From: a virus
Reading direction: 5' to 3' (one strand)
Length of the DNA stretch: 64,000 nt
Virus record (IMG/VR): IMGVR_UViG_3300025030_000041
Location: 64,001-128,000 of that record
A program made the position numbers and the translations under genes. Positions 2,355 through 19,613 of the stretch are shown piece after piece. The first letter of the stretch is position 1. The number at the start of each line of letters is the position of its first letter. The notes beneath the pieces are model-generated. The model was not told the origin of the DNA. It saw nothing but the letters and a program-made list of their open reading frames with translations, and searched no databases.

Positions 2355-2580
2355 AAAATTGATACACCTAGCAAAGAATTAAGTGATGCTGACTTTGTAA
2401 AACTTAGTGAGTTTATACGTTCACATTATGGTATAAATATACTGTATCTAAAAAAGCATGTTACAGGTACGTTTGCAAACCAGATTAAGAAAAAACAACA
2501 TTCTTACTTTTAAAGAGTATTGTAATTTTGTTTTCTCCGGTAAAAATAATGATTCAGAAGTTGTACGCGTAATTAGTTGA
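2355..2580 (+). pseudogene. cheR: Decayed fragment of a host-type chemotaxis methyltransferase CheR (N-terminal domain)
   Basis: No ATG and two frames. 2355-2513 reads ELSDADFVKLSEFIRSHYGI and beyond. After a frame change near 2495-2500, 2500-2580 reads ILTFKEYCNFVFSGKNND followed by SEVVRVIS. Together these follow the CheR N-terminal helical domain in order (E. coli CheR has LSDAHFRRISQLIYQRAGI ... LTDFGHYLNLL). The methyltransferase domain is missing; the sequence runs straight into the array-heading repeat. CheR is a bacterial chemotaxis enzyme, so this looks like captured host DNA that has decayed. Confidence 0.65.
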
Positions 2581-2714
2581 AGATTATGACCGTTTATCGT
2601 TTAGTATATTAATTATCAATTAATTATATTTAATTGATATATTTAGTTCAAAAATAAAGTACCTAAAAAATTTAATATATCAAAAATATTTCTTATTTTT
2701 GTATTAAATATAAC
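2572..2714 (+). repeat. Array-heading promoter repeat, copy A
   Basis: About 140 bp, shared with copies B (11168) and C (12591) on this strand and D (46527), E (58269) and F (54981, partial) on the other. It contains a right hairpin arm (TCAATTAATTATATTTA), then two inverted 21-nt arms (GTTATATTTAGTTCAAAAATA and the mirror ending TATTTTTGTATTAAATATAAC; 19 of 21 pair). Each arm carries an outward TATTTTTG, a Bacteroidota -7 box (TAnnTTTG). The right-hand box is at 2694-2701. The repeat ends in TAAC, the first bases of the next hairpin site. It heads the first cassette array. Confidence 0.8.
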
Positions 2715-2834
2715 ATGGGCATAAAAGAAATGCCGAAATTAGAAGTACAAATTATCAATTTAAAACAAAAGTAAATATGAAAAACAAAACATCAATTTTA
2801 GTAGGAGCTCGGCATTTCTTTTATGCCTTATTAG
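2711..2834 (+). repeat. attC-like imperfect hairpin site 1
   Basis: Left arm 2711-2736 (TAAC, then GGCATAAAAGAAATGCCGA) and right arm 2809-2834. The 19-bp inner stem pairs perfectly. The outer TAACATG faces TTATTAG with unpaired bases between core and stem. The loop of about 70 nt holds the start codon of the next gene at 2777. Confidence 0.75.
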
Positions 2835-3043
2835 TAGCTGTTATTTTTTGCGGTTGTGGAAACGGTGAAAATTCAGTGAATGGAGAAATAGAATATAGAA
2901 CAATTGTTGTAGATAGCTGTGAGTATATTGTAAAGTATAATGGCTATCAAAGAGGGTATATGTTTTCTCACAAGGGAAATTGTAAATACTGCTACAAACG
3001 TACCCCCATTTTGGTTAGTTGCGTGAAAATATTACAAAATTAA
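2777..3043 (+). CDS. Cassette gene: small lipoprotein-like protein with a DSCEY motif
   Basis: 88 aa. Residues 10-26 are hydrophobic and end in FCGCG, a lipobox-like signal, so it is probably exported and lipid-anchored. The mature part has VVDSCEYIVKY and SHKGNCKYC, a Cys pattern I recognise from small Bacteroidota and phage proteins of unknown function. The start codon lies in the loop of hairpin site 1 and the right arm of the hairpin encodes the signal peptide. Promoter: TATTTTTG at 2694-2701 in repeat A. First member of array 1. Confidence 0.6.
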   Translation: MKNKTSILVGARHFFYALLVAVIFCGCGNGENSVNGEIEYRTIVVDSCEYIVKYNGYQRGYMFSHKGNCKYCYKRTPILVSCVKILQN

Positions 3044-3192: not shown

Positions 3193-3504
3193 ATGAAAGA
3201 ATTATTTGAAAAACAATTAAACGGAACACAACCATTAACAAAAGATGTTTTAGAAAAATTACAAGTTAAAACATATTTTAATGGTGAAGAAAAACAAATT
3301 GGTGAAGTTGTATTAATGGCGATGTTAATGGGTGAAGTAATTGAAAAGGAAGGTGAATATCCAAAAGTACCATTAAAATTAATAACATTAAACGAAAGCC
3401 ATTTTAATTTATTTGAATATGATGAAAGATTTAATAGAGGTAATAAATTACCAACAATTAAATTGAAACCTTTAGTTGTGGTGGGTAAAAAATATTGCGT
3501 ATAA
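3193..3504 (+). CDS. Cassette gene: hypothetical protein
   Basis: 103 aa, soluble, no recognised motif. Codon use is less AT-extreme than in neighbouring phage genes. Its stop codon almost abuts the left arm of hairpin site 2 (TAAC at 3502-3505), the position expected for a cassette gene next to its recombination site. Confidence 0.55.
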   Translation: MKELFEKQLNGTQPLTKDVLEKLQVKTYFNGEEKQIGEVVLMAMLMGEVIEKEGEYPKVPLKLITLNESHFNLFEYDERFNRGNKLPTIKLKPLVVVGKKYCV

Positions 3505-3628
3505 CGTCCACAGGTATATATAGTTGCGTAAATAACATATAAAATTAATTAAAAGCGATAAAGTATGAAAACAGATAAAAGTAAATTAGAAGAACAAAAG
3601 CAGCAATTGGATATACATGTTGTTAGCG
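3502..3628 (+). repeat. attC-like imperfect hairpin site 2
   Basis: Left arm 3502-3527 (TAACGTCCACAGGTATATAT, then AGTTGC) pairs with right arm 3603-3626 (GCAATTGGATATACATGTTG, then TTAGC). Unpaired GTCC-type bases occur on the left strand only. The right core is GTTAGCGGTAGT, a sequence seen again at site 9. The loop of about 75 nt carries the start codon of the next gene. Confidence 0.75.
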
Positions 3629-4098: not shown

Positions 4099-4119
4099 TG
4101 TGAGAAGCGAACAATTAAA

Positions 4120-4247
4120 CATAACGGTTGGGTGTATATGTAATGTGAGATTTGAAACACTAAACTTGAATTAACCACAAATGATGATTAGAAGTAGGAT
4201 TGTTGAATATACCACTGAACCTCACATTACATATACACCTTGTTATG
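4120..4247 (+). repeat. attC-like imperfect hairpin site 3
   Basis: Left arm 4120-4149 and right arm 4221-4247. Outer CATAAC pairs with GTTATG, and the inner 19 bp (GGTGTATATGTAATGTGAG) pairs perfectly. Between them GGTTG faces AA, giving the one-sided bulge typical of attC folding. The loop is about 70 nt. Confidence 0.8.
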
Positions 4248-4252
4248 TGTAG
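4181..4252 (+). CDS. Possible 23-aa leader peptide inside hairpin site 3
   Basis: An ATG in the loop of site 3 opens a 23-codon frame (MMIRSRIVEYTTEPHITYTP ...) that runs through the right arm and stops at 4252. It sits where the other cassettes have their gene start, so it may be a start region that lost its gene body, or just chance. Confidence 0.3.
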   Translation: MMIRSRIVEYTTEPHITYTPCYV

Positions 4253-4578: not shown

Positions 4579-4590
4579 TATTACACATAA

Positions 4591-4687
4591 ATATTATATA
4601 TATATATATACATGTATGTTTAAACTATAATAAAATCAATAGTATGAACGAAAAAATTATAAAGATTTGTAAACAAAAACTTATATA
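4591..4687 (+). repeat. Array-closing repeat, copy 1
   Basis: An AT run (4591-4610) is followed by 70 bp (4618-4687, GTTTAAACTATAATAAAATC ...) that matches the reverse complement of 44901-44970 at 68 of 70 positions. Both copies lie directly beyond the last gene of a cassette array. A similar TATTATATATATA(TA)CAnGTA stretch follows array 3 at 13306. A tiny frame MNEKIIKICKQKLI is conserved in both copies and may be the truncated start of a gene. Confidence 0.75.
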
Positions 4688-6197: not shown

Positions 6198-6236
6198 TTA
6201 AAATTCTATTAATTTAAAAATTGAATAAATAATAAC

Positions 6237-6827: not shown

Positions 6828-6873
6828 TTTATTTTTATACTTTTACAAAAACTATTTACTAAATCGTTTTTTA

Positions 6874-7652
6874 ATGGATACTGATATTGAGACTAACTGT
6901 CTGCAAAAAAAGATGGTAATTTAATACATAATTTAATACCTAAATTTAAATACGAAAATAATTGGATAGCAGGAGGGTGTATTAGAGATATTTTAGATAA
7001 TACTAAATATAATGATATAGATATTTTTTCAAAAAATAGAGAAGACTCTATACGCTTTATAATAAACAATAATTTGCTAGATACTTATGAGATTTCTTTA
7101 GAACATTCTAAAAATAAAAAAGAAAGAAATCTTATTAAATATATTAAAGATGAAGTCTCTACTAAAAACCATAAACCTCTACTTAATTTACGTAATGATC
7201 CAAGAGTGTATAAATTAGATTTTATCAATAACGATAATCATATTCAAGTAATGATAGGCCAAAACTATCCCACTATAGAGTCTTGTATTTATGATTTTGA
7301 TTTTACCATATGCCAGTTTGGGTTTGATGGAAATGATATATATTACTTTGATAATTCAATTAATGATTTACAACAAAAAATAATTAAATTAGCAAAAATT
7401 AAAAATAATAGATTTATATACTTTGAAAGAATAATTAAGTTTTTGAATAGAGGATATAAATTAGATAAAGAATCTTATGAGTTTATTATTAAATCACAAC
7501 CTAGTCTTGAATATTTACAAGAAACTGGAAGAGCCTTAGACTGCGACTTTTTTAAATATATTAATAGTAAAAACTTAAGTGAGACGTTATTAAAAAATAA
7601 AATATCATTATTACATTTAGATGGAATGCTAAACACTACAAATTTAATTTAA
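6874..7652 (+). CDS. Nucleotidyltransferase-like protein read across a -1 frameshift
   Basis: The ATG at 6874 opens 13 codons ending in CAA AAA AAG, then that frame stops at once. A -1 shift on the A AAA AAG heptamer (6906-6912) joins the frame DGNLIHNLIPKF ... that runs to 7652, giving 259 aa. The joined region holds WIAGGCIRDIL and NDIDIF (about residues 30-55), the GG...R and DxD signature of polymerase-beta-type nucleotidyltransferases (poly(A)/CCA-adding superfamily). The alternative TTG start at 7074 would cut off this catalytic motif, so I reject it. Either programmed frameshifting or a missing A in the run explains it. Confidence 0.65.
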
Positions 7653-7668
7653 TCTTAAAAACCATTAT

Positions 7669-8274
7669 ATGAAACTACCTGTAAAAAAAAATGAATTAAT
7701 ACAAGAATTATCTATTGAATTTAAAAGAACAAAATCTAAATTAGTTTATAATAAACTATATAACTTAATATTACCGCAAGTTCAGTTATATATATATAAA
7801 ATAGTGAAAGACTATGACGACTCTAATGATATTTCATCAGAAGTTATGATTAAGCTTTGGCAAAAAATTGATATGTATAATGAAAATTGGAGATTTAGTA
7901 CATGGATATATAGTATAGCTAGGTATGACGCCTTACAATTTATAAATTATAAAAAAAATACAGTCACATTAACTATTTTTCATGATACCGGCTCTAAAAA
8001 AGAGTTTAATAGCTTTGAAATCTTTAATTCAGAAAAAGACTTCGAAACTTTATATAATACAGTAGTTTCAGAAATACTTAAATTAAATGGTAGAAAAAAG
8101 GAAGTTCTTATTGACAGGGAAATAAATAGAATGAAATATAAGGATATATCGGTTAAATATAATATAAATATTGATACTATTAAAACCTTAATTCGTCAAT
8201 CACGAATACAGGTTTTAGCTAAATTATCAGAGAAAAAACATATAGTAGAACTAGCAAATGAAATTTTAAAATAA
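7669..8274 (+). CDS. RNA polymerase sigma factor (ECF-like), likely phage late sigma
   Basis: 201 aa, sigma-70 family. NDISSEVMIKLWQKIDMYNE followed by FSTWIYSIARYDALQFI (about residues 44-92) is region 2, with the conserved W...I.RN-like helix. MKYKDISVKYNINIDTIKTL near 155-175 is the region 4 helix-turn-helix. It would redirect host RNA polymerase; by analogy with T4 gp55 it is the candidate reader of the TATAAATA boxes seen before virion genes. That pairing is inference. Confidence 0.78.
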   Translation: MKLPVKKNELIQELSIEFKRTKSKLVYNKLYNLILPQVQLYIYKIVKDYDDSNDISSEVMIKLWQKIDMYNENWRFSTWIYSIARYDALQFINYKKNTVTLTIFHDTGSKKEFNSFEIFNSEKDFETLYNTVVSEILKLNGRKKEVLIDREINRMKYKDISVKYNINIDTIKTLIRQSRIQVLAKLSEKKHIVELANEILK

Positions 8275-8282
8275 AATAAATT

Positions 8283-8750
8283 ATGAGACTTTCTATACCT
8301 AATTTTATAAATCCTAACTTTATAATTAACAAATTTTATAATATTGTTTTAGAAGTAAATATTTACTTAAAATATATATCTGCATTAAAACAGATGAAAA
8401 ATAATAAAATAATAGGGGATACCCTAGAACTTAGAAAAGACTATATTAATAGGCTATACTCTGTTATTAATTTACCTCCTGAATTTCTTATAGAAGAAGA
8501 AAATAAAGAAGAATTAAATAGATTAGAGGTAGAATACCTTAAACATGAATTTAAAAAATATAATGACGTTTTTTTAGAATACGGAATACTAGACCTAATT
8601 AAAATGAAAACGGAAAAAATATGTACTAAAGACCATTACGCATTTATAATAAAAATAAAATATAAATGGAATGAAACAAATATAATATGGGTATTATACA
8701 TAGTATTCTTAATTGGCCTATTAATAAAACTATACACTATCTTTTTGTAA
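8283..8750 (+). CDS. Hypothetical protein with a C-terminal membrane anchor
   Basis: 155 aa, charged helical body and a hydrophobic C-terminus (WVLYIVFLIGLLIKLYTIFL) typical of a tail-anchored protein. It starts 8 nt after the sigma factor gene. No family recognised. Confidence 0.5.
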   Translation: MRLSIPNFINPNFIINKFYNIVLEVNIYLKYISALKQMKNNKIIGDTLELRKDYINRLYSVINLPPEFLIEEENKEELNRLEVEYLKHEFKKYNDVFLEYGILDLIKMKTEKICTKDHYAFIIKIKYKWNETNIIWVLYIVFLIGLLIKLYTIFL

Positions 8751-8815
8751 ATTATCTTTTATAATATAGTAAACCTATTTTATTTTAGATACCTAATACC
8801 AAAAATTTAAGTCAT

Positions 8816-10519
8816 ATGGCAATAGATTTAAACTTACTTAAAGATCATAATACTAGACAAGATTATATTAATACTTTAACTAAAGACGAACTTAAAGCAT
8901 TAATTAATAAACTCAAACTGCAAGATAGTGCATTTAAGATTATATTAAATAGCTATTATGGTTCATCAGGTCAAAATTCCTTCGCATTTTTCAATTTAGA
9001 CATAGCGGCGTCAATAACTTTGCAAGGTCAAGATATTATTAAGTATACGGATAAGGTAATAGAACATTATTTTATTAATGAGTGGCATCTTGATAAAGAG
9101 CTTCATAAAAAATTAAGTATAGATCATTTAAAAATTAATCCTATAAAAATAACAAAAGGGCCACCTATAATATATGTTGACACGGATAGCGTCAACGAAA
9201 ATTCAATAATTTATGTAAAAAATATAGGAAAAATTAAAATTAAAGATTTTTTTAAATTATGTTATAAAATTAATAGTATTATTAAATTAAAAAATGGGAA
9301 TGAGATAATTGGTATTTCTAATTTTAGAATATTAAATTTTAATAATACCTTATATTATGCAAAACCTAAAAAACTGATTAGGCATAAAGTAAAAAAGAAA
9401 AAATGGTTATTGAGGTCTAAGTCTGGAAAATCAATAATATGCACAGAAGATCATTCACTAATTGTATTTCACGATGGAATACAATTAAAAATTAAGCCAT
9501 CTGAAATTAATACAAAAATTGATAAAATTTTAACAATTAACGAATTAGACTTAAATTTTAATTATCAATTTGAAGATATATCTGAATGTAAATGTATAGG
9601 TGAATTCGAAGATGAGTGGGTATATGATATTGAAATGGATGATGCAACTCATACGTTTATTGCTAATGATATTTTAGTTCACAATTCTGGTTATATTAAT
9701 TATGATTATATTATAAAGTCGATAGAGGGGTTTGATACATTAAAAATAAGTCCTATATTATTTGCAGCTGATATAATTAAATATAGGATGAATTCTTATT
9801 TAAATAATAAATTTGAAGAATACGCTAAGTCGTATAATGCAATAAACACCCATGATTTTAAATTAGAGCATATTAGTAATAGTGGTATTTTTATTGCAAA
9901 AAAAAATTATATATTAGATGTTGCATTTGAGGATAGACTATTACCTGAGTCGTATTTATTACCTAAGGGGTTTGATTTAGTAAAAGCGTCTTTACCAAAA
10001 TGGGCACGGGCTAAAGGTACAGAATTAATTAAGATTATTTTAAAGAATGGCGACTCTTTAAATATGGATGAGATATTAAATAAATTATTAGAATATAAAG
10101 AAGAATTTAAAGGGCTACACCCTGATGAGTTTAGTATGAATTTTAATCTACGAACATTTAAAAAATATGTCATTAAAGATGACGATCAATTAGTATTTGC
10201 AAAAGGCGCATCTATCTATCCAAGGTCCGCTGGTTATTATAACCATTTATTATATAAGCAAACTGATAATATACGCAAAAAATATAAAAAGGTAAGAACC
10301 GGAGATAAGGTTAGATTTTATAATTGTATGCCTGATGATACGTATAAGATAGATGCATTTAGTTATTTACCTGGAAAATTTCCAATTGAGTTTGCGCCTC
10401 ACGTAGATTATGATGAGCAATTTAATGTTATTATTTTAAATCCATTGAATAGGGCTCTAGAAGCTATGGATATGCCATTAATAGAAAAAAATGTAATGTA
10501 TTTTAATGATTTGTTTTAA
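8816..10519 (+). CDS. C-terminal part of a split family B DNA polymerase, containing a mini-intein
   Basis: 567 aa precursor. FKIILNSYYGSSG (40-52) is polymerase motif B (Kx3NSxYG). YVDTDS (120-125) is motif C with the two catalytic Asp residues. AKKNY downstream is the KKxY motif. The exonuclease domain and motif A (SLYP) are absent and must be on another gene outside this window, so the enzyme is split just before the fingers. Motif C is interrupted after DTD by a 166-aa intein; removing it leaves a 401-aa chain reading YVDTDSGY. The last 14 nt overlap the next gene. Confidence 0.88.
   Translation: MAIDLNLLKDHNTRQDYINTLTKDELKALINKLKLQDSAFKIILNSYYGSSGQNSFAFFNLDIAASITLQGQDIIKYTDKVIEHYFINEWHLDKELHKKLSIDHLKINPIKITKGPPIIYVDTDSVNENSIIYVKNIGKIKIKDFFKLCYKINSIIKLKNGNEIIGISNFRILNFNNTLYYAKPKKLIRHKVKKKKWLLRSKSGKSIICTEDHSLIVFHDGIQLKIKPSEINTKIDKILTINELDLNFNYQFEDISECKCIGEFEDEWVYDIEMDDATHTFIANDILVHNSGYINYDYIIKSIEGFDTLKISPILFAADIIKYRMNSYLNNKFEEYAKSYNAINTHDFKLEHISNSGIFIAKKNYILDVAFEDRLLPESYLLPKGFDLVKASLPKWARAKGTELIKIILKNGDSLNMDEILNKLLEYKEEFKGLHPDEFSMNFNLRTFKKYVIKDDDQLVFAKGASIYPRSAGYYNHLLYKQTDNIRKKYKKVRTGDKVRFYNCMPDDTYKIDAFSYLPGKFPIEFAPHVDYDEQFNVIILNPLNRALEAMDMPLIEKNVMYFNDLF
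9188..9685 (+). mobile_element. Mini-intein in DNA polymerase motif C
   Basis: Residues 125-290 of the polymerase precursor. Intein block A starts with Ser (SVNENSIIYV). TEDHS is block B (TxxH). Block F/G is EWVYDIEMDD ... FIANDILVHN, and Ser follows as the +1 extein residue. At 166 aa there is no room for a LAGLIDADG or HNH domain, so it can splice but cannot home by itself. Insertion inside DTD|S of motif C is a well-known polymerase B intein site. Confidence 0.88.
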
Positions 10520-10907
10520 ATATGAAGATATTAAAGATAAAGCCTTACTATCTAAATTAATAAAAGAAGAGGCTGATAGGATATTTAATTCTAGTATTGC
10601 AAGAAGGCATAGAAGTTATGACATAATATCCAATAATGTCAAATTAGGTAAAACGGCTGAAGTATGGTTATATGAAAATTTCAATTATAAATTTACAAAT
10701 GACATTTATACAGATTTACTAACAGATAGGGGCAATATAATAGAAGTAAAAGTAAAAAGAATTAAAAATCTTAATTGTTTAAATGACCAAATACAAAATG
10801 ACCTTGAAAAAATTAAAAGTTCAAATGTAAATAATTCAACAGTTTATATATGCTTCTCATATAATGACAATATATATAAATTAGAAAAAATAATAAAACT
10901 AACATGA
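10506..10907 (+). CDS. Putative PD-(D/E)xK nuclease-like protein
   Basis: 133 aa. AEVWLYENF, then DLLTDRGNIIEVKVKR, fits the E...D...ExK spacing of PD-(D/E)xK nucleases, so it may be a small phage endonuclease or resolvase-like enzyme. It starts within the last codons of the polymerase gene (14-nt overlap), suggesting translational coupling to DNA replication. The domain call is by motif only. Confidence 0.45.
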   Translation: MICFKYEDIKDKALLSKLIKEEADRIFNSSIARRHRSYDIISNNVKLGKTAEVWLYENFNYKFTNDIYTDLLTDRGNIIEVKVKRIKNLNCLNDQIQNDLEKIKSSNVNNSTVYICFSYNDNIYKLEKIIKLT

Positions 10908-11131
10908 TACAAGTTATTAAATATGCATGTTGTGATAAAATATTTGCAGCATGCCATGAACCTCACTGCTACACTGATACTGACTGGCTTAAAAACCTAA
11001 AACAATATGTTAGGCGAGGCGATAAAGTGGAAATGATACATGGTGGAAATGGACTCCAAATGGGTCAATGCGAGTGTAATGAATTAGTGAAAAGTAAAGA
11101 CCTAAACTTATTTAGTAAAGCAACACAATAA
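10904..11131 (+). CDS. Small Cys-rich conserved phage protein
   Basis: 75 aa with KYACCDKIFAACHEPHCY and QCEC, a probable zinc site; I recognise this N-terminus from Bacteroidota phage proteins of unknown role. ATG overlaps the previous stop (ATGA). It is the last gene before the second cassette array. Confidence 0.55.
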   Translation: MIQVIKYACCDKIFAACHEPHCYTDTDWLKNLKQYVRRGDKVEMIHGGNGLQMGQCECNELVKSKDLNLFSKATQ

Positions 11132-11167
11132 AACTATTCAGTTTAGCCTCACCCATATATAATACAC

Positions 11168-11301
11168 AAAGAGTATTATATTTATCATTTAGTAGATTGA
11201 TTATCAATTAATTATATTTACTTGTTATATTTAGTTCAAAAATAAAGTACTAAAAATGTTAATATATCAAAAACATTTCTTATTTTTGTATTAAATATAA
11301 C
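11168..11301 (+). repeat. Array-heading promoter repeat, copy B
   Basis: Same element as copy A: TCAATTAATTATATTTACTT arm, paired 21-nt inverted arms with outward TATTTTTG boxes (rightward one at 11281-11288), ending in ATATAAC. It heads array 2. Confidence 0.8.
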
Positions 11302-11428
11302 AGTTTGCAGGTTTATTTAGTTGCGACTTTAAAAACGAAAAATTATGATAACAGAAAAACAATACTTAAAAGCGAAAAAGTTAATTGCAGACTACGAAAG
11401 CCAGCAATTGAATAAACATGTTGTTATA
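11298..11428 (+). repeat. attC-like imperfect hairpin site 4
   Basis: Left arm 11298-11324 (TAACAGTTTGCAGGTTTATT, then TAGTTGC) pairs with right arm 11404-11428 (GCAATTGAATAAACATGTTG, then TTATA). TATAAC/GTTATA cores; the extra AGTTTG on the left is unpaired. The start codon of the next gene is in the loop. Confidence 0.8.
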
Positions 11429-11515
11429 AGCAGTAAGCCGACCTCAAAAAAGAAGAAGGTGATTATAGATGCAGATAAATTTTCAAAGATGTGTGATGTT
11501 ATTAAACGGATATAG
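11345..11515 (+). CDS. Cassette gene: small basic protein (56 aa)
   Basis: 56 aa. Its leader (MITEKQYLKAKKLIADYESQ) is a type I recognise from Bacteroidota hypothetical proteins; then QLNKHVVISSKP is translated from the right arm of site 4, with the core GTT in frame as Val. The rest is Lys-rich (KPTSKKKKV). Function unknown. Promoter: repeat B. Confidence 0.55.
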   Translation: MITEKQYLKAKKLIADYESQQLNKHVVISSKPTSKKKKVIIDADKFSKMCDVIKRI

Positions 11516-11527
11516 GCTTATTGCTGC

Positions 11528-11656
11528 TAACGTTCATCAGATATATTCAGTTCTGATTTTAATATATAACTAAAATAAATTAATAAGATGAAAGATAGAA
11601 AACATATAAAAACATTTGAAGATAAGACATCAGAATTGAATATATCTGATGTTATA
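11528..11656 (+). repeat. attC-like imperfect hairpin site 5
   Basis: Left arm 11528-11555 (TAACGTTCATCAGATATATT, then CAGTTCTG) pairs with right arm 11631-11656 (CAGAATTGAATATATCTGAT, then GTTATA). 19 of 20 inner bases pair; the unpaired bases are again on the left strand next to the core. Confidence 0.8.
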
Positions 11657-11845
11657 AGTAGTAAAACTAAGGAAGAAATTCTAAAATTGATAAAAAGTTT
11701 AGATGATAGAGGGTATTTTTATATTTTCAATAATAGAGAGGATTTTGTAGAGGGTAGAACAGATTGGGATGATTTAAAAGATACTTGTGAAAACTTTTAT
11801 TATGTTATTGAAAATATAAAAGAATTAATAGAAAGAAATGAGTAG
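11588..11845 (+). CDS. Cassette gene: hypothetical protein
   Basis: 85 aa. Starts in the loop of site 5; the right arm is read as SELNISDVISSK, core GTT in frame as Val. Acidic, soluble, C-terminal helix rich in Glu; no family recognised. Confidence 0.52.
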   Translation: MKDRKHIKTFEDKTSELNISDVISSKTKEEILKLIKSLDDRGYFYIFNNREDFVEGRTDWDDLKDTCENFYYVIENIKELIERNE

Positions 11846-11857
11846 TTTTATTACTTA

Positions 11858-11987
11858 TAACGTGCCGCAGCTTGACGCTGTTGGCGATTTGAAACACGAA
11901 TTTTAATTAAACAACAAAAGTAAATATGGAAACGAAAACTTCAATTAACAACGAAACCGCCAATAGCGTTCAAGGTACTGTTAGGCG
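11858..11987 (+). repeat. attC-like imperfect hairpin site 6
   Basis: Left arm 11858-11891 (TAACGTGCCGCAGCTTGACG ...) pairs with right arm 11952-11987 (ending AAGGTACTGTTAGGCG). It is visibly more GC-rich than the phage around it, and the right core GTTAGGC fits the integron consensus GTTRRRY exactly. Confidence 0.82.
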
Positions 11988-12270
11988 TAGGGCGGACATC
12001 AATCAGGAGATTGCCGAAAAATGGGAATTAATCGCTCAAATCAAAACAGAAATAGTTGCCTTGAAAAAAGAGGAACTTCTATTGTGTGATGACCACCAAA
12101 GATTTGAGGAAACGGAAGAAGAAATAACAATTTCAAGGCGACCAAAGAAAACCGAAAAGCGATTAATTGGGCGTATTCATTGGAAGGAAGAATTTAAGGA
12201 TGAAGATACAGAGCAATCTATTTGGATTGAGCGTTCACAGGTTGTTCGCGTCAATGGTGTGTGGCAGTAG
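11926..12270 (+). CDS. Cassette gene: coiled-coil hypothetical protein of foreign composition
   Basis: 114 aa. Starts in the loop of site 6; the right arm reads ANSVQGTVRRR with the core GTT in frame. Residues 25-60 form a coiled coil (EIAEKWELIAQIKTEIVALK), followed by an Arg/Lys-rich and an acidic-aromatic part. GC content and codon choice (GCC, GCG, CGC) clearly differ from neighbouring phage genes, a sign of recent acquisition. Function unknown. Confidence 0.55.
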   Translation: METKTSINNETANSVQGTVRRRADINQEIAEKWELIAQIKTEIVALKKEELLLCDDHQRFEETEEEITISRRPKKTEKRLIGRIHWKEEFKDEDTEQSIWIERSQVVRVNGVWQ

Positions 12271-12277
12271 CCTTACG

Positions 12278-12369
12278 CCTAACGTTTTGCGTATATGTGA
12301 AGTACGCATAGCAGAAACTTGAAATTAAATACAAACCTTAATGGCGTATTTCACATATACGCTGTTAGC
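12278..12369 (+). repeat. attC-like imperfect hairpin site 7
   Basis: Left arm 12278-12308 (CCTAACGTTTTGCGTATATG, then TGAAGTACGC) pairs with right arm 12343-12369 (GGCGTATTTCACATATACGC, then TGTTAGC). 18 of 19 inner bases pair; GTTTT faces a single A. Shortest loop of the set (about 35 nt). Confidence 0.85.
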
Positions 12370-12559
12370 AAATCGTAAAATTATGACTAAGAAAGATATT
12401 TTAAAATTAGTAGAAGAAACATTCAGCGAAGAAATTTCAACTTCTTGTGCTGAAACTGTATTAGGACTTGAAAGTTGGATTGATGGTAAAGAAGAATTTA
12501 TGGAAAAGTTAGCAGAGAAGTTGAAATTGTTATTTGATGATAACGACTTATCTAAATAA
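12341..12559 (+). CDS. Cassette gene: acidic hypothetical protein
   Basis: 72 aa if started at 12341; MTKKDILKLVEETF at 12383 is an equally likely start, since the first 14 residues are just the translated hairpin arm. Helical, acidic, unrecognised. Unlike most members, the core GTT is not in the codon frame here, favouring the later start. Confidence 0.5.
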   Translation: MAYFTYTLLANRKIMTKKDILKLVEETFSEEISTSCAETVLGLESWIDGKEEFMEKLAEKLKLLFDDNDLSK

Positions 12560-12570
12560 TTTTATGTTTG

Positions 12571-12660
12571 CTAACGTTCTGTAAATATGATTAGTTGAAG
12601 AGTACTGTCATTTATAATTTAGTAGATTGATTATCAATTAATTATATTTACTTATTATAT
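12571..12660 (+). repeat. attC-like imperfect hairpin site 8 (right arm inside promoter repeat C)
   Basis: Left arm 12571-12598 (CTAACGTTCTGTAAATATGA, then TTAGTTGA) pairs with the conserved segment TCAATTAATTATATTTACTT, then ATTATA (12635-12660), of repeat C. This shows that the array-heading repeats themselves carry a recombination-type right arm, so the promoter behaves like a gene-less cassette. Confidence 0.7.
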
Positions 12661-12731
12661 TTAGTTCAAAAATAAAGTACTAAACGTGTTAATATATCAA
12701 AAATATTTCTTATTTTTGTATTAAATATAAC
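12591..12731 (+). repeat. Array-heading promoter repeat, copy C
   Basis: Same element as copies A and B, here embedded between two cassettes. Rightward TATTTTTG box at 12711-12718; ends in ATATAAC at 12731, which begins site 9. Confidence 0.8.
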
Positions 12732-12853
12732 GGCTACAGATAAACTCAGTTTTTATTATGGAAAAGAAAATATATTACGAAAACAATTGGTTAAATCAGC
12801 ACTTAAATAAAGTTGGATTGCTCGATAAAAAATTGAGTTTATCTGATGTTATG
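12728..12853 (+). repeat. attC-like imperfect hairpin site 9
   Basis: Left arm 12728-12754 (TAACGGCTACAGATAAACTC, then AGTTTT) pairs with right arm 12828-12853 (AAAAATTGAGTTTATCTGAT, then GTTATG). 16 of 17 inner bases pair; GGCTAC faces ATC next to the core. Confidence 0.8.
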
Positions 12854-12979
12854 TGTTGTGTTTGTGGGTCGGAACTCACAATTCAAGAGAATGAAGAAAA
12901 TCTAACTTATGATGTTAGAGAACGAATATGTGATAAATGTAATAGTGAGTTGAGCGAGGAAAGAAAACATTGCATATAA
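12758..12979 (+). CDS. Cassette gene: small zinc-ribbon protein
   Basis: 73 aa with two CxxC pairs (CCVCGSE and CDKC), a likely zinc ribbon, possibly nucleic-acid or protein binding. It starts in the loop of site 9 and the right arm reads LSLSDVMCC, the core GTT in frame as Val. The 3' end runs into the next hairpin. Promoter: repeat C. Confidence 0.6.
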   Translation: MEKKIYYENNWLNQHLNKVGLLDKKLSLSDVMCCVCGSELTIQENEENLTYDVRERICDKCNSELSEERKHCI

Positions 12980-13104
12980 CGGCATCCGCTATGAGTAGTG
13001 GCGGATTTAGAACTACTCACTTTAAATTTAGCACAAATGACAATAGAAAGCACAGAACATCAAGAAAGCACTAACCCGCCATTACTTATATCGAGTGTTA
13101 GCGG
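12977..13104 (+). repeat. attC-like imperfect hairpin site 10
   Basis: Left arm 12977-13007 (TAACGGCATCCGCTATGAGT, then AGTGGCGGATT) pairs with right arm 13073-13104 (AACCCGCCATTACTTATATC, then GAGTGTTAGCGG). More GC-rich than the phage background. The right core GTTAGCGGTAGT matches that of site 2. Confidence 0.82.
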
Positions 13105-13291
13105 TAGTGTTTTTCGTCCGAAGAATGGACACGAATTACTGCAAGCATTGAAAGAAAATAAACAATGTGAGATAGTAGATACACACGCATTTTTAGCAAC
13201 AAAAGCACTTGAAGACAACCATTGCGGATTTTCATTTTCTTTCAAGCTGTCAAAGTGGAATAAAGGATGGTCAGGTTTCGAGTGGTCTTAA
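13037..13291 (+). CDS. Cassette gene: hypothetical protein
   Basis: 84 aa from the ATG at 13037, which I prefer to the in-frame GTG at 12998 because it lies in the loop of site 10 like other cassette starts. The right arm reads PPLLISSVSGS, core GTT in frame as Val. Codon use is richer in GC than in phage genes. No domain recognised. Confidence 0.52.
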   Translation: MTIESTEHQESTNPPLLISSVSGSVFRPKNGHELLQALKENKQCEIVDTHAFLATKALEDNHCGFSFSFKLSKWNKGWSGFEWS

Positions 13292-13304
13292 CATTACCGC
13301 TAAC

Positions 13305-13340
13305 TATTATATATATACAAGTACGCTTAATATATTGAAT
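13305..13340 (+). promoter_or_regulatory. Array 3 end, possible recombinase attachment site
   Basis: After the last cassette stop come CGCTAAC and TATTATATATATACAAGTAC immediately before the recombinase gene. The same AT run plus CA(A/T)GTA motif follows array 1 at 4594-4616. Its place between array and recombinase is where an integron carries attI, but no direct evidence fixes that role. Confidence 0.4.
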
Positions 13341-14156
13341 ATGAATACTAAATTTGATTGTATTATCAGAAAATTTGAAAAAACTCTGATAATAAAAAAT
13401 TATTCAACATGTACTATTAATAATTATAAAAGTTGTCTTTATAACTTTTTAATAGAAATAAACAATGATCCATACCATTTAAATTTAGAACAGTTAAACA
13501 ACTATTTATTTAATTTTAATTATTCGTCAGTATCACAGCAAAATCAAATACTTAATTCTTTAAAAATATTCTATTTATTAATTTTAAAAAAATCAATAAA
13601 ACATTTAATTAAAATTAAAAGACCACGAAGAGAAAAGAAATTACCACAAGTAATTTCGCATGATGAAATTGTGCAATCAATTTCCAAAATACAAAACTTA
13701 AAACATAAAGCTATCATATCGCTAGCATATAGTAGTGGATTAAGAGTTTCAGAAATATGTAATCTTAAATTAGAAGACATAGATTCAAAAAGAATGCTAA
13801 TTTTAGTTAAATCAGGAAAAGGAAGAAAAGATAGAGTTGTACCTCTTTCAAATCATATTTTAGGGCTTTTAAGAAAATACTATCTTAAATACAAACCTGA
13901 GTTTTATCTTTTTGAAAGCTATGCTCATGGAGTTAAATATTCTACTTCAAGTTGTAGGCAAATTTGGAATAATTTTAAAATTAATAAAAATTCAACTTTT
14001 CATACATTGAGGCATTCATGCTTTACAAATCTTTTAGAAAATGGAACGGACATACGAATAATTCAAAAAATAGCAGGGCATTCATCAATAAAAACTACAG
14101 AAATTTATACTCACATATCAACTAATATCTTAAATAAGATTAAATTACCAATTTAA
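13341..14156 (+). CDS. Tyrosine recombinase / integrase
   Basis: 271 aa from the ATG at 13341. A longer frame from 13209 would overlap the preceding cassette gene, so I reject it. N-terminal SAM-like DNA-binding domain (about 10-90), then the catalytic domain: Arg135 in SSGLRVSE, Lys159 in KSGKGRKDR, His221 and Arg224 in HTLRH, His247 in GHSS, Tyr256 in TTEIYTH, the full RKHRHY set. It is XerC/D- and IntI-like, but there is no obvious room for the extra alpha-I2 helix of classical integron integrases before HTLRH. It lies at the 3' end of the cassette arrays in the same orientation. I infer that it acts on the array hairpins. Confidence 0.9.
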   Translation: MNTKFDCIIRKFEKTLIIKNYSTCTINNYKSCLYNFLIEINNDPYHLNLEQLNNYLFNFNYSSVSQQNQILNSLKIFYLLILKKSIKHLIKIKRPRREKKLPQVISHDEIVQSISKIQNLKHKAIISLAYSSGLRVSEICNLKLEDIDSKRMLILVKSGKGRKDRVVPLSNHILGLLRKYYLKYKPEFYLFESYAHGVKYSTSSCRQIWNNFKINKNSTFHTLRHSCFTNLLENGTDIRIIQKIAGHSSIKTTEIYTHISTNILNKIKLPI

Positions 14157-14224
14157 AAAAAAAATATTAGTTTTAATACTAATTAAACTCCAATAATAGA
14201 AAAAACTTAAAAACAATTAAAAAT

Positions 14225-14965
14225 ATGCTTACACAAGATAATATTAAATCAGTATTACTTTTTGATTTAGAAACATGTGGTCAATCTAAGGAGTTATTTG
14301 GATTACCTCCTCTTTTACAAGATATATTTATACGTAGAACTTGGCAAAAAATTAAAGAAGAGTATAAAGATGAAAACGAAGGGTATTTAAAAAATGCCGG
14401 CTTATATGCTGAATATGGTAAAATAATATGTGCGTCGTTTGCCATGATTAAGTTTGATGAAAATATTAGTAGTATTAGTCTAATTAATATAGCAGATGAA
14501 AATGAAAAGATTCTTTTAGAAAAAGTGAGTAAATTATTAAATGACTTTTCATCTATTTTTAAAAATGGTAAATTATGTGGGTATAATATTAAAAATTTTG
14601 ATATACCATTTTTATCAAAACGATTTTTAATTAATAGATTAGATTTACCAAATTTATTAGATAACTATAACAAAAAGCCATGGGAAATATCATGTTATGA
14701 TTTATTTGAAATGTGGTCATTTGGCCAAAAAAAATTAATACCATTTGAATTAGTATTAGCGTCACTAAATATTGATACCCCTAAAGATGATATTCATGGC
14801 CATGAAGTCCATGAAACATATTATTCATCAGACAATAAAATAAATTCTCTTAATAAAATATCAAAGTATTGTGGAAAAGATGTTATAGCATCTTGCCAAT
14901 TATTATTACGTTTAAATAATATCGATGTAGTTAATAAAGATAATATTATTAGTAAAACAATTTAG
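14225..14965 (+). CDS. DnaQ-like / PolB-type 3'-5' exonuclease
   Basis: 246 aa. Exo I: LLFDLETCG (Asp15, Glu17). Exo II: LCGYNIKNFDIPFL (about 118-131). Exo III: YCGKDVIAS (about 218-226), giving the DEDD metal set with a Tyr (DEDDy). This fits the stand-alone exonucleases related to the polymerase B proofreading domain. It could provide proofreading to the split polymerase, whose own exonuclease part is not in this window; that pairing is inference. Confidence 0.75.
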   Translation: MLTQDNIKSVLLFDLETCGQSKELFGLPPLLQDIFIRRTWQKIKEEYKDENEGYLKNAGLYAEYGKIICASFAMIKFDENISSISLINIADENEKILLEKVSKLLNDFSSIFKNGKLCGYNIKNFDIPFLSKRFLINRLDLPNLLDNYNKKPWEISCYDLFEMWSFGQKKLIPFELVLASLNIDTPKDDIHGHEVHETYYSSDNKINSLNKISKYCGKDVIASCQLLLRLNNIDVVNKDNIISKTI

Positions 14966-15002
14966 TAGTGTATATGTTATTTAATTTAAATACTTTTTAA
15001 TC

Positions 15003-15596
15003 ATGGAAACAATTATAAGAAAATGCAAAAAGCATGGAGAAACTGAATTTTATTTTTATAGCTCTAAAGTTTTTATATGTAAAGAATGTGCAAAAGCTAG
15101 AAGAAGAGAAAAATATAAAAAATCTCCTAAATATGATAAAGACTATTTTAAAAAATGGAAAGAAAAAAATAAAGATAAATTATATAGTTTACATAAAAAA
15201 TGGGTAGCTAAAAAAAGATTAAAAAAGAATTTAGTGTTTGAACAATTTTATCTTAATCATAACGACTATTTTAAATCTATTAAACACATTTTCGATTTAT
15301 CTTTATCTAAAGCCCAAATAAAAACAATATTTAAATGTAAAGATTTATTGCTAAAGCTAACTAATGACGACATTTTTAACATGATAGCTGAACATAAACT
15401 AAAAAAATTAAAGCCATATATATTATGGAGTCAATCTCGTATGGCAAAATTTAGATTTAGAAAAGAGATTTCTAAATTTGGCGAATATAAAAACTGTAAT
15501 AAAACATTAAAATCGGCAATTAAAAAAATGGCAGTTGATGATACTATAAAAAAACTTAAAGATAAGGCCATTGAATTTAATACTAAAAAAATATAA
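15003..15596 (+). CDS. Basic zinc-finger protein, HNH-like N-terminus without the HNH core
   Basis: 197 aa, very Lys-rich. CKKHGETEFYFYSSKVFICKEC forms a CxxH...CxxC knuckle as at the start of many phage HNH nucleases, then KARRREKYKKSPKYDK. No His-Asn-His follows, so it is more likely a nucleic-acid-binding protein or a decayed HNH nuclease. Confidence 0.45.
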   Translation: METIIRKCKKHGETEFYFYSSKVFICKECAKARRREKYKKSPKYDKDYFKKWKEKNKDKLYSLHKKWVAKKRLKKNLVFEQFYLNHNDYFKSIKHIFDLSLSKAQIKTIFKCKDLLLKLTNDDIFNMIAEHKLKKLKPYILWSQSRMAKFRFRKEISKFGEYKNCNKTLKSAIKKMAVDDTIKKLKDKAIEFNTKKI

Positions 15597-15701
15597 TTTT
15601 AAATTAATAAAAGATAAAAATAAAGTATTGTGGAATTTATGATATATGATTGTCTGCAATATTGTTAATACTAAATTAATAAGTTATAAAAATAAAATAA
15701 C

Positions 15702-15908
15702 GTGAGGCTTGAATTAAATTTAAGTAATGAGGAAAAAGAAAAAATATTAGAATGGAAAAAGTCTCTTCCAAATAATAACCGTGTGTTTATTTATGCATTT
15801 ATTGAAAATGGTAAATACTCAGATCGCCATTATAAACTTCACAAATTTGTAATAAAAAGTGATGACGCTTTTATATTAGAAGTTGCAGATAATGTTGAAA
15901 TGTTATAG
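15702..15908 (+). CDS. Hypothetical protein (GTG start)
   Basis: 68 aa, GTG start, acidic and soluble with no family recognised. It precedes the YopX gene by 13 nt in the same direction. Confidence 0.45.
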   Translation: MRLELNLSNEEKEKILEWKKSLPNNNRVFIYAFIENGKYSDRHYKLHKFVIKSDDAFILEVADNVEML

Positions 15909-15921
15909 CTAAATTAAAAAA

Positions 15922-16296
15922 ATGAGAACAATAAAGTACAGAGCAAAAGATATGTCAAATGAGTGGGTTTATGGTAATTTTATCCATTCTAAAAGATTTA
16001 AAGGATGCTCAAACGAATTTAGAATACACAATCCAGAAACTGGATTAGAAAGCGATATTTTAATTGATACACTTTGCCAATTAGTTGCAATTAGAAATGG
16101 TATTGAGTTTTACGAGCATGACATTGTAGAAGACTTTTTATCTATTCGTTGGAATGACGATATCGCTTCATTTGAATTTTATTGTACTCATTCAGGAGAA
16201 AGCTGCAATGGAGACACTAACTGGTATGAGAACGATGACATATTAAATAGAGTTATTGGCAATATTTTTGATAATCCTGAAATAGTAGAAGGCTAA
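15922..16296 (+). CDS. YopX-family protein
   Basis: 124 aa. It follows the YopX layout: MRTIKYRAKDMSNEWVYGNF at the start, then DTLCQLVAIRNGIEFYEHDIV (the QfTGlkDknGkeIYEGDIV block), and RVIGNIFDNPEI at the end. YopX proteins are common in phages and mobile elements of Gram-positives and Bacteroidota; their function is unknown. Confidence 0.75.
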   Translation: MRTIKYRAKDMSNEWVYGNFIHSKRFKGCSNEFRIHNPETGLESDILIDTLCQLVAIRNGIEFYEHDIVEDFLSIRWNDDIASFEFYCTHSGESCNGDTNWYENDDILNRVIGNIFDNPEIVEG

Positions 16297-16380
16297 CTTA
16301 AATAGAATTAGGATAATTGCACATTAATAAAAATATTTTTATTTTTGAATAAATAATAAAATAAAACATTTTTAAAAACA

Positions 16381-16716
16381 ATGGAACAAAAATTATTATA
16401 TACATTAGTTGGAGTAAGTATATTTTTTTGTATGATGAGTGGGTGTTTTTCGTGTAGAACTTATACTAAAATTAATAATAATAACGAAACTACTATTAAA
16501 ATTCAAGATAGTTTAATAAATATTATTATAGATTTAAAAAAGTCGACTTATACTAAAAAACAATTAGACTTATTGTTTGAAAAACAGTCATATTATATGG
16601 AAAAAACTACACTATTTAATATGAATCAAATAGTTCTTACTAAAAATAGGCCAGACCAAAAGATTAACGAAATTGATCAAAGGATTAACGAAATTAATAA
16701 AAAAATTAATGAATAA
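16381..16716 (+). CDS. Membrane-anchored coiled-coil protein
   Basis: 111 aa. Residues 5-23 form one hydrophobic segment ending in SGCFSC, which could be a lipobox. The C-terminus has heptad-like NEIDQRINEINKKINE. It abuts the next membrane-protein gene. TATTTTTG lies upstream in the gap, a possible early-type promoter. Confidence 0.5.
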   Translation: MEQKLLYTLVGVSIFFCMMSGCFSCRTYTKINNNNETTIKIQDSLINIIIDLKKSTYTKKQLDLLFEKQSYYMEKTTLFNMNQIVLTKNRPDQKINEIDQRINEINKKINE

Positions 16717-17340
16717 ATGATAAAACATTTTTCTAGTAAAAATATTCTTTTTATTTTCTTTGCTGTACCCTTCATCTCTAGTATTCTTTCAACTATACAT
16801 TTAATATCATTCGCTGGGTTAGCTAATCCTTTCTTTCTATCTGTATTACTCGCTACTACGTTTGAACTAGGGTCTCTTGTGTCATTTATAGTTGGTAGCG
16901 GCAAAACTCTATTGAAAAAAATTAAAAAGAGTTATGTTATCTTAATGTTCTTAATTCTTTTTATTTTACAAGCCTTTGGTAATGTTTATGCGTCATATGA
17001 TTATATACGCCATAAATTAATGGAAGACCCAACTTGGCTAGATACATTCATGGATATGATGCTAGGTGCATTAGATTTACAAATGAGTAAGTTTATTGTA
17101 TCAATATTAATAGGATTGCCTATACCATTAATATCATTAATTTTATTGAAATCTGGAGTAGACTATATATCCGAAGAAGAGGATGACATATTACCTAAAC
17201 AGGAAAAAATAATAGAACCAGTTATAGTAGTAAAAACTGAAGATACTATACTACCTAATTTTGAAATAAATAAACCAGAAGAAACTATACAAACAATAGA
17301 TGGAAAAAATAATACTATAGGCGAACCCTATATGCAATAA
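16717..17340 (+). CDS. Polytopic membrane protein
   Basis: 207 aa with about four hydrophobic segments (roughly 9-27, 38-62, 73-90, 123-146) and a long acidic, disordered cytoplasmic tail. Possible host-envelope modifier or holin-like protein; the tail and size do not match a known holin. Zero-gap with its upstream neighbour. Confidence 0.5.
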   Translation: MIKHFSSKNILFIFFAVPFISSILSTIHLISFAGLANPFFLSVLLATTFELGSLVSFIVGSGKTLLKKIKKSYVILMFLILFILQAFGNVYASYDYIRHKLMEDPTWLDTFMDMMLGALDLQMSKFIVSILIGLPIPLISLILLKSGVDYISEEEDDILPKQEKIIEPVIVVKTEDTILPNFEINKPEETIQTIDGKNNTIGEPYMQ

Positions 17341-17341
17341 T

Positions 17342-17845
17342 ATGGCTCAGATAACTAGAATTTGTGCAGATAGTCAAGATACAATTAAAAAACTAATTAT
17401 TCAAAATAATAATTTTGATATTATTTTAAAAGATAAGGTGCTTTTTAGTTTTTTAATGGCTGGATTTGTATATCCAGTTGATTCTTATGAATATATTTCA
17501 GATACCCTTACATATAACCAATCTATAAATCTTTTTGATAATACCAATTTAACTAAACAAGTCAAAGGCATAATTATTAAAGTAAATTATCCTTTACAAG
17601 ATAATAAGCAATATATACCACTTGAAAAACAATACTTGCAAATGGATATATATGATGATAATTTACCCAGTAGTCCGTCTATGTATGTAAGACAAAAAAT
17701 ACATAATTTATATGTTAACTTAATGCCACCAACTACTGATACAATACTATTAAATATAGGCCTAATTAATAGTATCACATTAACTAATATACACCAAGAA
17801 AATTATAATATAGAAGTATCTATATTATTGATAAAACAAAAATAG
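17342..17845 (+). CDS. Hypothetical protein, possibly virion-associated
   Basis: 167 aa, beta-rich, no signal or membrane segment, family not recognised. It starts 1 nt after the membrane protein and is the last plus-strand gene before the convergent late region. Confidence 0.4.
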   Translation: MAQITRICADSQDTIKKLIIQNNNFDIILKDKVLFSFLMAGFVYPVDSYEYISDTLTYNQSINLFDNTNLTKQVKGIIIKVNYPLQDNKQYIPLEKQYLQMDIYDDNLPSSPSMYVRQKIHNLYVNLMPPTTDTILLNIGLINSITLTNIHQENYNIEVSILLIKQK

Positions 17846-17861
17846 GTGTTATATTTAAATG

Positions 17862-19613
17862 CTATCTTTTCCAAACAAAAATATAGTTACCACTATTATA
17901 ACATTCTTTATAATCCAATCCATGCATTATCTCAAACTCCGTTTTATCAATACTATAATTACTTAATTTATGCTTAACGTAAACTTGTCTATTATACCTC
18001 TTATAATTTTTAGTATAAAAATACCCAGGTCTAGACTCTCCTAAATAATCAAACCCCATATTAATATAAACATTTTCGTCAAATCTAAACGCCCAATCTC
18101 TATTAGAATACGTTAAAACCAAATTAATTTCACTATACTTATTAATAAAATAAGAAAATAACCTATTAGCTGCCCCAATAACATTAGTATTCAACTTATT
18201 ACAAAACCTATACAACTCTAAATCATATTTTTCCTTGTTTTTATTCCCATACCTAATCTTTCCAAATGTCATCAAACTAACTAACTCCTCTCCATAATAC
18301 AAACCTATATTATATTTACTCATACACTTGCCCTGCAAATGATTATCTTCTAAAAATTTATTAGACTCTTTAAACGATACTTCTCGTATCACACACTTCC
18401 TAGAATATATCCTATTAGGAGTTTTATTTAAAAGGTTAAGTATACGTGATTTAATAATATTTTTTCTATATAACCAATCATCTTCCCATATATGAACTAG
18501 ATGGACCTTTTGTTTTATACAATTAACGGTTTTATTTAAATGATAATTTTTATTTTTTAGTATTACATTATTATGTGCATAAAAACTATTATATTCAAAT
18601 GCTAAGTTTAATTCAGGTATATAAATATCTAATTCCTTTGGTGAAATAACAGTTCTATTATTTTGAATAACATTAAAGTCAGTATTATTTTTAATAAATT
18701 CATAAATTTCAGTTTGACAAATACTTGAGCTTAATGGATTACAATTTAAGCATGGAGTTTCTATTTTATATTTTTCTACTCTTTGCTGTAAAAGATTATT
18801 ATTAATAATATATTCAGTATTACATTTATCACATAGTATAGTTATATCTCTATCATAATCTACATTAATAATATTTAAGTTTGGATATTGCGCTAGTATT
18901 CGTTTTCTAGTTTTTTCTAGTTTTTTCTTTTTAATTTCTTCTCTATTTATCTTAAGAGATTCTATTCCAGCTAATCTAACTTCAGGAACTTGAAATGGAT
19001 GAAAATATTTTCCATTAGTTTTTTCTATAAATGTCTTTCTCTTTTTTTCTTTTAGTTTAATACTACTATCAGTTCCTTTTCCATAATTTTTTGAAAAAGT
19101 ATTTGATGCTTTTTCTTTAACCCAACTAATTTGTTTAATATTGTCTACACCATACTTATCTCTAATTGTATCTTTTCTTTTTAAATACGCAGTATTTCCT
19201 TTCGCTAATGGGTTATCCTCTCCTTTTAAATGCTTATGATTTCCAGAAATATGATTCTTAATATACTTTTCTTTCTTTTTAAGTTTAACGTCTAAATCAT
19301 TATTAATACATTTCATACTACAATATACTGAATATCCTAATGACAACCCTCTAAATTTAGGGAAATTAATCTTACAACACTTACATATAGGTACACAGTT
19401 CAATTCATAAATATAATGATAAATCTGTTGTGTAAATGATAGATCTATCAAATCATTTAATTTACTATTCTCTTCTATTAAATTAAATAAATCAGGATTA
19501 TTATTATTTAACTTTTTTCTGACACACTTCCACCCTGATTTATTATCAGTCATAAAATATTCTAATACTTCAGTTTTCATTTTTCCATTCAAATTTATAA
19601 TTTCCACAATCAT
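17862..19613 (-). CDS. Homing-endonuclease-like protein, copy 1
   Basis: 583 aa (ATG at 19580, MKTEVLEYF, is an alternative start). The N-terminal half has short repeats of the KYGVDNIKQISW type seen in phage homing nucleases (NUMOD / DUF7487-like). A Zn knuckle follows. The C-terminal half has ELDIYIPELNLAFEYN, a PD-(D/E)xK-like core, then HIWEDDW and NRIYSRKC as in Vsr/EDxHD-type homing enzymes such as I-Bth0305I. Paralogue of the adjacent gene, with 44-nt overlap. It lies downstream of the capsid gene, a frequent homing target zone. Confidence 0.65.
   Translation of the reverse strand: MIVEIINLNGKMKTEVLEYFMTDNKSGWKCVRKKLNNNNPDLFNLIEENSKLNDLIDLSFTQQIYHYIYELNCVPICKCCKINFPKFRGLSLGYSVYCSMKCINNDLDVKLKKKEKYIKNHISGNHKHLKGEDNPLAKGNTAYLKRKDTIRDKYGVDNIKQISWVKEKASNTFSKNYGKGTDSSIKLKEKKRKTFIEKTNGKYFHPFQVPEVRLAGIESLKINREEIKKKKLEKTRKRILAQYPNLNIINVDYDRDITILCDKCNTEYIINNNLLQQRVEKYKIETPCLNCNPLSSSICQTEIYEFIKNNTDFNVIQNNRTVISPKELDIYIPELNLAFEYNSFYAHNNVILKNKNYHLNKTVNCIKQKVHLVHIWEDDWLYRKNIIKSRILNLLNKTPNRIYSRKCVIREVSFKESNKFLEDNHLQGKCMSKYNIGLYYGEELVSLMTFGKIRYGNKNKEKYDLELYRFCNKLNTNVIGAANRLFSYFINKYSEINLVLTYSNRDWAFRFDENVYINMGFDYLGESRPGYFYTKNYKRYNRQVYVKHKLSNYSIDKTEFEIMHGLDYKECYNSGNYIFVWKR

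Follow-up and report, generated by a model that had tools for sequence, protein, structure and literature searches.

Genomic Setting and the Recombinase Gene

The window, i.e., the whole 64-kb stretch of DNA that was analyzed, is part of a 246-kb virus record and carries a tyrosine recombinase gene next to an array of small genes and hairpin-forming sites (Table 1). The record contains genes for a baseplate wedge, a prohead protease, a DNA polymerase and a clamp loader; judged from its sequence, the source is a large (jumbo) T4-like phage. A capsid family search of the record returned nothing. The host would be a member of the Bacteroidota because of the relatives of the recombinase (see below) and the promoters of the TAnnTTTG type.

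Translation of the recombinase ORF is stop-free over 271 amino acids, the length originally given. The protein (P0001) matches the Pfam family Phage_integrase (3.2e-38) and stays below the cut-off of two NCBIfam models: 194.6 bits for recomb_XerA_Arch (cut-off 220) and 170.7 bits for the integron integrase TIGR02249 (cut-off 265). R135, K160, H221, R224, H247 and Y256 are invariant in an alignment of 38 relatives. The catalytic set is complete, as had been claimed, except that its lysine is K160 and not K159.

The recombinase lacks the IntI-specific I2 insertion, in line with the original observation. Counted in the alignment as the residues between Arg165 and the histidine of the HxxR motif, the segment measures 57 residues in P0001, 54–57 in its phage relatives and 55–61 in its bacterial relatives, compared to 62–68 in most XerC/XerD proteins and 102–103 in six IntI proteins (including IntI1, IntI2 and Vibrio IntIA). 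Profile and pairwise alignments place the same gap at this insertion. In an AF2 model (pLDDT 89.4), where the I2 helix was looked for, only a four-residue turn is found at the insertion position. The nearest structures to this model retrieved by Foldseek are archaeal XerA and Vibrio IntI4 (2a3v).

A second intact recombinase, 52% identical to the first, is encoded at record positions 233723–234502, and a truncated copy lies near 161196. The latter region is a duplicate integron-like locus (record 159791–161215; 11791–13215 of contig L093), with an attI and the first recombinase codons, after which the gene is truncated.

Two other observations concern the surroundings. The B-family DNA polymerase gene at window positions 8816–10519 is split by an intein-like segment ending in ...HTFIANDILVHN|S (Pfam Intein_splicing 3.2e-07, below the cut-off). 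A separate 3'-5' exonuclease gene (14225–14965) lies on the other side of the array, and its separate position suggests a split polymerase. In the structural region, direct repeats with a 42-nt periodicity and longer repeats between neighboring genes (23796–24257 and 25197–28894) probably represent repeat proteins and duplicated genes.

Arrays of attC-Like Sites

Candidate sites were located with a scanner that requires RYYYAAC...GTTR boxes and complementary arms and that recovers Vibrio attC sites as a control. On the plus strand of window positions 1–18000, seven strong sites were detected, all within 2.7–12.9 kb, while ten dinucleotide shuffles of the scanned region gave zero or one match each at this level. 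Because the scanner demands complementary arms, it partly predetermines the site counts and stem statistics; the complementarity of the cassette ends, the attI and the three-copy cassette described below are independent of it. The arrays first noticed at this locus are thus real, but "arrays 2 and 3" are better taken as a single array (11170–13304) with an internal promoter cassette.

Table 1. Position of the recombinase, the attI-like sites, the cassettes and the attC-like sites in the window.
Feature	Position	Strand	Description and basis
Promoter cassette/head of array 1	2572..2714	+	Copy of repeated promoter element
attC-like site, array 1	2708..2846	+	Score 19.6; overlaps start of lipoprotein-like gene 2777-3043
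attC-like site, array 1	3499..3628	+	GTATAAC...GTTAGCG; R' by eye
attC-like site, array 1	4119..4248	+	ACATAAC...GTTATGT; score 21.2
attI-like end of array 1, without recombinase	4581..4616	-	TTACACATAAATATTATATATATATATACATGTATG; motif as at 13297-13330
Promoter cassette/array head, gene-less	11170..11301	+	GTTATATTTAG...TTATTTTTGTATTAAATATAAC; repeat family D5; ~15 full or partial copies in record
attC-like site a	11295..11429	+	ATATAAC...GTTATAA; MITEKQ... gene start in loop
Three-copy cassette	11302..11531	+	Hairpin, 56-aa gene 11345-11515 and R''
attC-like site b	11525..11657	+	TGCTAAC...GTTATAA; score 22.1
Cassette gene	11588..11845	+	MKDRKHIKTFEDKTSELNISD^VISS...; start within site b
attC-like site c	11855..11986	+	TTATAAC...GTTAGGC; scanner
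Cassette gene	11926..12270	+	METKTSINNE...; start within site c
attC-like site d, short class	12277..12370	+	GCCTAAC...GTTAGCA; scanner
Cassette gene	12383..12559	+	58 aa; start 3' of short site d
Second promoter cassette	12569..12733	+	Hairpin arms GTAAATATGATTAGTTGA / TTGATTATCAATTAATTATATTTAC (by eye), then promoter-like TTATTTTTGTATTAAATATAAC
attC-like site f	12725..12854	+	ATATAAC...GTTATGT; score 18.6
Cassette gene	12758..12979	+	Two CxxC motifs; start within site f
attC-like site g	12974..13103	+	ATATAAC GGCATCCGCTATGAGTAGTGGCGG...CCGCCATTACTTATATCGAGT GTTAGCG; by eye, below scanner threshold
Cassette gene, last before attI	13037..13291	+	MTIESTEHQE...; start within site g
attI-like site	13297..13330	-	Last cassette R'' (CCGCTAAC, 13297-13304), then constant TATTATATATATACAAGTACGC; minus strand TATATATAATA G|TTAGCGG
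Tyrosine recombinase, I2-less	13341..14156	+	Putative integrase of the system; translation, Pfam/NCBIfam, alignment, AF2 model, tree

The phage genome contains about 15 copies of a 120–165 nt element that bears a promoter of the Bacteroidota type (TTATTTTTGTATTAAATAT). Besides the three copies in Table 1, the window contains copies on the minus strand at 46527–46652, 54978–55025 and 58269–58388. Some copies are gene-less cassettes heading arrays, and others precede single genes; the second promoter cassette of the window has a 99.4% identical copy at record 159791–159952. The promoter-only cassettes probably drive the array.

Linkage of Recombinase, attI and Array

Related loci were gathered by the recombinase alone, arrays playing no part in the selection. 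Among 80 viral loci obtained in this way, about 40 have at least three attC-like sites; many phage loci have fewer than three, in some cases owing to a contig end. Across 29 phage loci, each 20 kb long, the plus-strand sites number 24, 23, 25 and 30 in the successive 1-kb bins of the 4 kb upstream of the recombinase, and almost none are located downstream. In 17 chromosomal loci the layout is mirrored: nearly all sites are downstream of the recombinase.

The bacterial relatives are 40–48% identical to the recombinase and belong mostly to Bacteroidota. In Flavobacterium, a genus sampled through locus L168, 32 of 61 genomes contain a relative at E ≤ 1e-40. By sequence similarity, the recombinase belongs to a large family of Bacteroidota phages and chromosomes. 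One contig of the Flavobacterium sp. ES-bin-45 MAG (L099) has a recombinase that falls inside the phage clade and is probably a phage contig within a bacterial bin. Among isolated phages, Polaribacter phage Leef_1 (MT732473, locus L181) seems to have both an array of this kind and an attI-like sequence in the region upstream of the integrase gene (700–3010), with site boxes GTTGGCA and TGCCAAC.

In 39 of 48 phage loci, the recombinase is directly preceded by the motif AAC|TATTATATATA or a near variant, for which the background is 0.02 per 180 nt; 31 different 7-mers precede the shared AAC. Compared across loci, the minus-strand reading TATATATAATA G|TTRRRY is an attI with a variable cassette joined to it in first position. 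In the chromosomes, the recombinase stop codon is immediately followed by an attI of the form ...TATATACAAG|TTR, and the next box is complementary to R'' of the first attC. An attI by the integrase with a G|TT joint to the first cassette, as required of an integron, is found here by comparison only.

Polarity and Predicted Fold of the Sites

Genes are on the plus strand in 148 of 151 cases in phage arrays and in 42 of 44 in chromosomal arrays. The more stable strand of the sites is the plus strand in 198 of 207 phage sites and the minus strand in 49 of 69 chromosomal sites. These strands share a common architecture: an R-box helix, a 5' bulge of 3–4 nt after AAC ((3,0) or (4,0)), about 4 bp and a 1x1 mismatch, beyond which the stem is long, with G.T pairs and only occasional small bulges. 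The loop differs too strongly between the short and the long site class for a covariance model. The arms of about 20 bp vary in sequence between sites while complementarity is kept, and G.T pairs occur 2.85 times per site on one strand vs. 0.30 on the other. Small bulges number 0.35 per phage site vs. 1.8 per Vibrio site (n = 5, with at least one bottom-strand fold that is no clean hairpin); the five Vibrio attC have single-base bulges in place of the one-sided bulge of 3–4 nt.

As the phage plus and chromosomal minus strands are alike, phages would use the chromosomal kind of site with the genes inverted relative to it, and because of this inversion the long phage sites (~130 nt) contain the gene start. 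Among 130 non-redundant phage sites, an ATG in the loop is read through R' in frames 0, 2 and 1 in 49, 18 and 10 cases, respectively (shuffle expectation 3.0, 1.8 and 1.4), and related leaders, e.g., MKDLKHIKRFNESEENLNISD, stand ahead of unrelated gene bodies. In integrons, the genes point away from attI and the site is found at the gene 3' end. The phage hairpin is instead located at the gene 5' end, and the chromosomal arrays look classical. The recombinase had been described as lying at the 3' end of the arrays. The linkage holds, yet this end is not the tail. Judged by site polarity, the recombinase occupies the attI end and points away from the array, which is the layout of classical integrons; the reversed elements are the cassette genes.

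Cassettes as Mobile Units

Cassette ends were no criterion in site finding. Even so, the 5' box (R') and the 3' box (R'') of one cassette agree at positions 5–10 with a frequency of 0.64 in phages and 0.69 in chromosomes, compared to 0.43 within one site and 0.35 and 0.32 between contigs. An array of attC sites with R''/R' boxes and complementary cassette ends, another defining trait of integrons, is present.

The MITEKQ cassette (MITEKQYLKAKK...) occurs in three 99% identical copies in the phage genome: the one in the window and two at record positions 158403–158639 and 234575–234808, the last of which adjoins the attI of the second recombinase. The copies have different left and right neighbors, and their identity stops exactly at AAC on both sides. 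This comparison shows that cassettes have moved as units within the phage genome. Between different phages, whole-cassette comparison provided a single pair, L012 and L035; these near-identical contigs have a stretch of 315 nt, bounded by R'' boxes, in common at 100%. The only second assembly of the phage (L004), in which an array change was sought, is identical except for two gap positions in 16,660 nt, and a search with the exonuclease gene for an empty-site comparison matched only this same assembly.

Where hairpins are at least 80% identical, nine phage pairs remain similar into the downstream gene and one into the upstream gene; the single informative chromosomal pair (0:1) is the classical way round. 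The site pairs behind this polarity are few. The hairpin travels with the downstream gene, and the leader is therefore read as the gene's own start. A modular role of the in-frame leaders, as start-codon donors fused to new genes upon shuffling, was considered and rejected as the main reading.

Phylogeny

In the phylogeny proposed as a check, the tree separates Xer from a group made up of the short recombinases and IntI (100/100). IntI groups with five short recombinases of Bacteroidota, Spirochaetota and Nitrospirota (support 99/96), two of which (L114 and L178) have arrays. The AU test does not reject a constraint that keeps all short recombinases together as a clade outside IntI (p-AU 0.37). 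A tentative scenario, which we consider possible rather than probable, is that the I2-less systems preserve the ancestral integron, or something near it. A recombinase of the Xer type, without I2 and spread by Bacteroidota phages and chromosomes, would already have captured cassettes at attI via folded single-stranded stems without extrahelical bases; classical IntI would later have gained the I2 helix and come to read extrahelical bases.

Discussion

The best explanation, to which we assign a probability of roughly 85%, is that the recombinase acts as the integrase in an integron-like cassette system common to many phages and present in Bacteroidota chromosomes in mirror arrangement. The linkage, the attI, the cassette unit, the position of the joints and the past movement have been shown by comparison. 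The system is called integron-like since I2, a defining feature of integron integrases, is absent. The array consists of units of a hairpin, a gene and an R'' box, with joints at AA|C on the plus strand, i.e., G|TT on the minus strand. The recombinase of the locus would itself do the recombining: from the strand bias, it is expected to bind attC folded as a single strand (plus in phages, minus in chromosomes), cut at the R box and join the folded attC to a double-stranded attI. Cassettes would thus be captured, excised or reordered beside the recombinase gene. The choice of strand may come from the G.T pairing and the bulge. The I2 helix would not be needed because the sites are predicted to form stems resembling dsDNA, interrupted by a one-sided bulge of 3–4 nt and a 1x1 mismatch in place of extrahelical bases.

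The same cassette system could also work by Xer-like recombination on double-stranded palindromic sites, the strand bias having another cause. Such a route would suit a recombinase without the helix that IntI uses for folded attC and with archaeal XerA among its nearest solved structures, and IntI itself still recombines double-stranded attI sites (PMC4792948). It is nonetheless unlikely, given arms that vary between sites yet stay complementary, G.T pairs kept on one strand only and a stable strand that flips between phages and chromosomes.

Even less probable is an ordinary integrase of a temperate phage with its own dsDNA attP, located by chance beside an integrase-less array (CALIN) borrowed from the host. 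The recombinase does match the Phage_integrase family, and its nearest relatives in isolated phages, namely Leef, Ingeline and Freya, which are described as potentially temperate, carry the annotation of integrase (PMC8776804). However, the association of recombinase, array and attI recurs with fixed geometry in dozens of contigs and chromosomes, and Leef_1 too seems to have an array upstream of its integrase. Furthermore, no tRNA gene is present within the 64-kb window, and several copies and a truncated copy occur in one genome, each by an attI-like sequence. Of the two alternatives originally offered, an unrelated integrase sitting here by chance is contradicted by the recurrent linkage, the conserved attI and the tree, and the other, a recombinase that handles attC-like hairpins by another route, is strongly supported. 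Hairpins acting as RNA (terminators, attenuators or translational control), with an incidental recombinase, are the most improbable: the stable strand in phages is the coding one and the hairpin loop holds many gene starts, but in chromosomes it is the non-coding strand although the genes are on plus, which contradicts this reading, the joints, attI and moved cassettes are left unexplained, and an Rfam search gave no family match; an additional RNA role of the hairpins is possible.

As an integron-like system, the locus would give phages their own device to swap small genes. Integron searches that require the IntI-specific domain, by which integrases have been detected (PMC9668308), would miss this I2-less family. 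In Bacteroidetes proper, only one complete integron had been reported, in Salinibacter (PMC9024848). No earlier report of an I2-less array-linked family was found in the literature covered, which leaves out preprints and many journals. According to PMC4792948, the I2 domain occurs only in integron integrases, where it accommodates extrahelical bases, and integrons may have originated in viruses; an I2-less family with attI and arrays makes both the specificity of I2 and the viral origin testable. Because the isolated phage Leef_1 seems to carry such a system, it is amenable to laboratory work.

Comparison with Known Systems

Like the classical integrons (IntI1, IntI2 and Vibrio IntIA), the system has an integrase by attI, GTTRRRY/RYYYAAC boxes, a G|TT joint, arrays of small genes of mostly unknown function, complementary cassette ends and hairpin sites of 90–135 nt; the phage loci also share the divergent intI-attI-array layout. 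It differs from them in the missing I2 insertion (54–61 vs. 102–103 residues) and apparently in stems with a one-sided 3–4 nt bulge and without regular extrahelical bases. In the phage loci, moreover, the genes are inverted relative to site polarity and start inside the site, while in the chromosomal loci the integrase gene is co-directional with the cassettes and upstream of attI.

Phages are known to carry attC sites, some of which are used by IntI1, including those of Polaribacter phage P12002L (Qi et al. 2023, PMC9892861). In that study, unlike here, the virulent phages had attC clusters without integrase, and the integrase-bearing phages contained pieces of classical integrons (Vibrio, E. 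coli P1 and Shewanella). The reversed-integrase integrons of Treponema and other Spirochaetota also have co-directional integrase and cassette genes (PMC3607928, PMC9668308). In the published account, however, their integrases count as IntI on the strength of the IntI-specific domain (PMC9668308).

The recombinase shares the lack of I2 with XerC, XerD and XerA. XerCD, without I2-like domains, integrates CTXphi through a folded single-stranded stem without extrahelical bases (PMC4792948), a remark that fits the proposal that dsDNA-like stems remove the need for I2. In contrast to XerC/D, the recombinase belongs to a separate clade, and it is a dedicated, phage-coded enzyme accompanied by an attI and cassette arrays.
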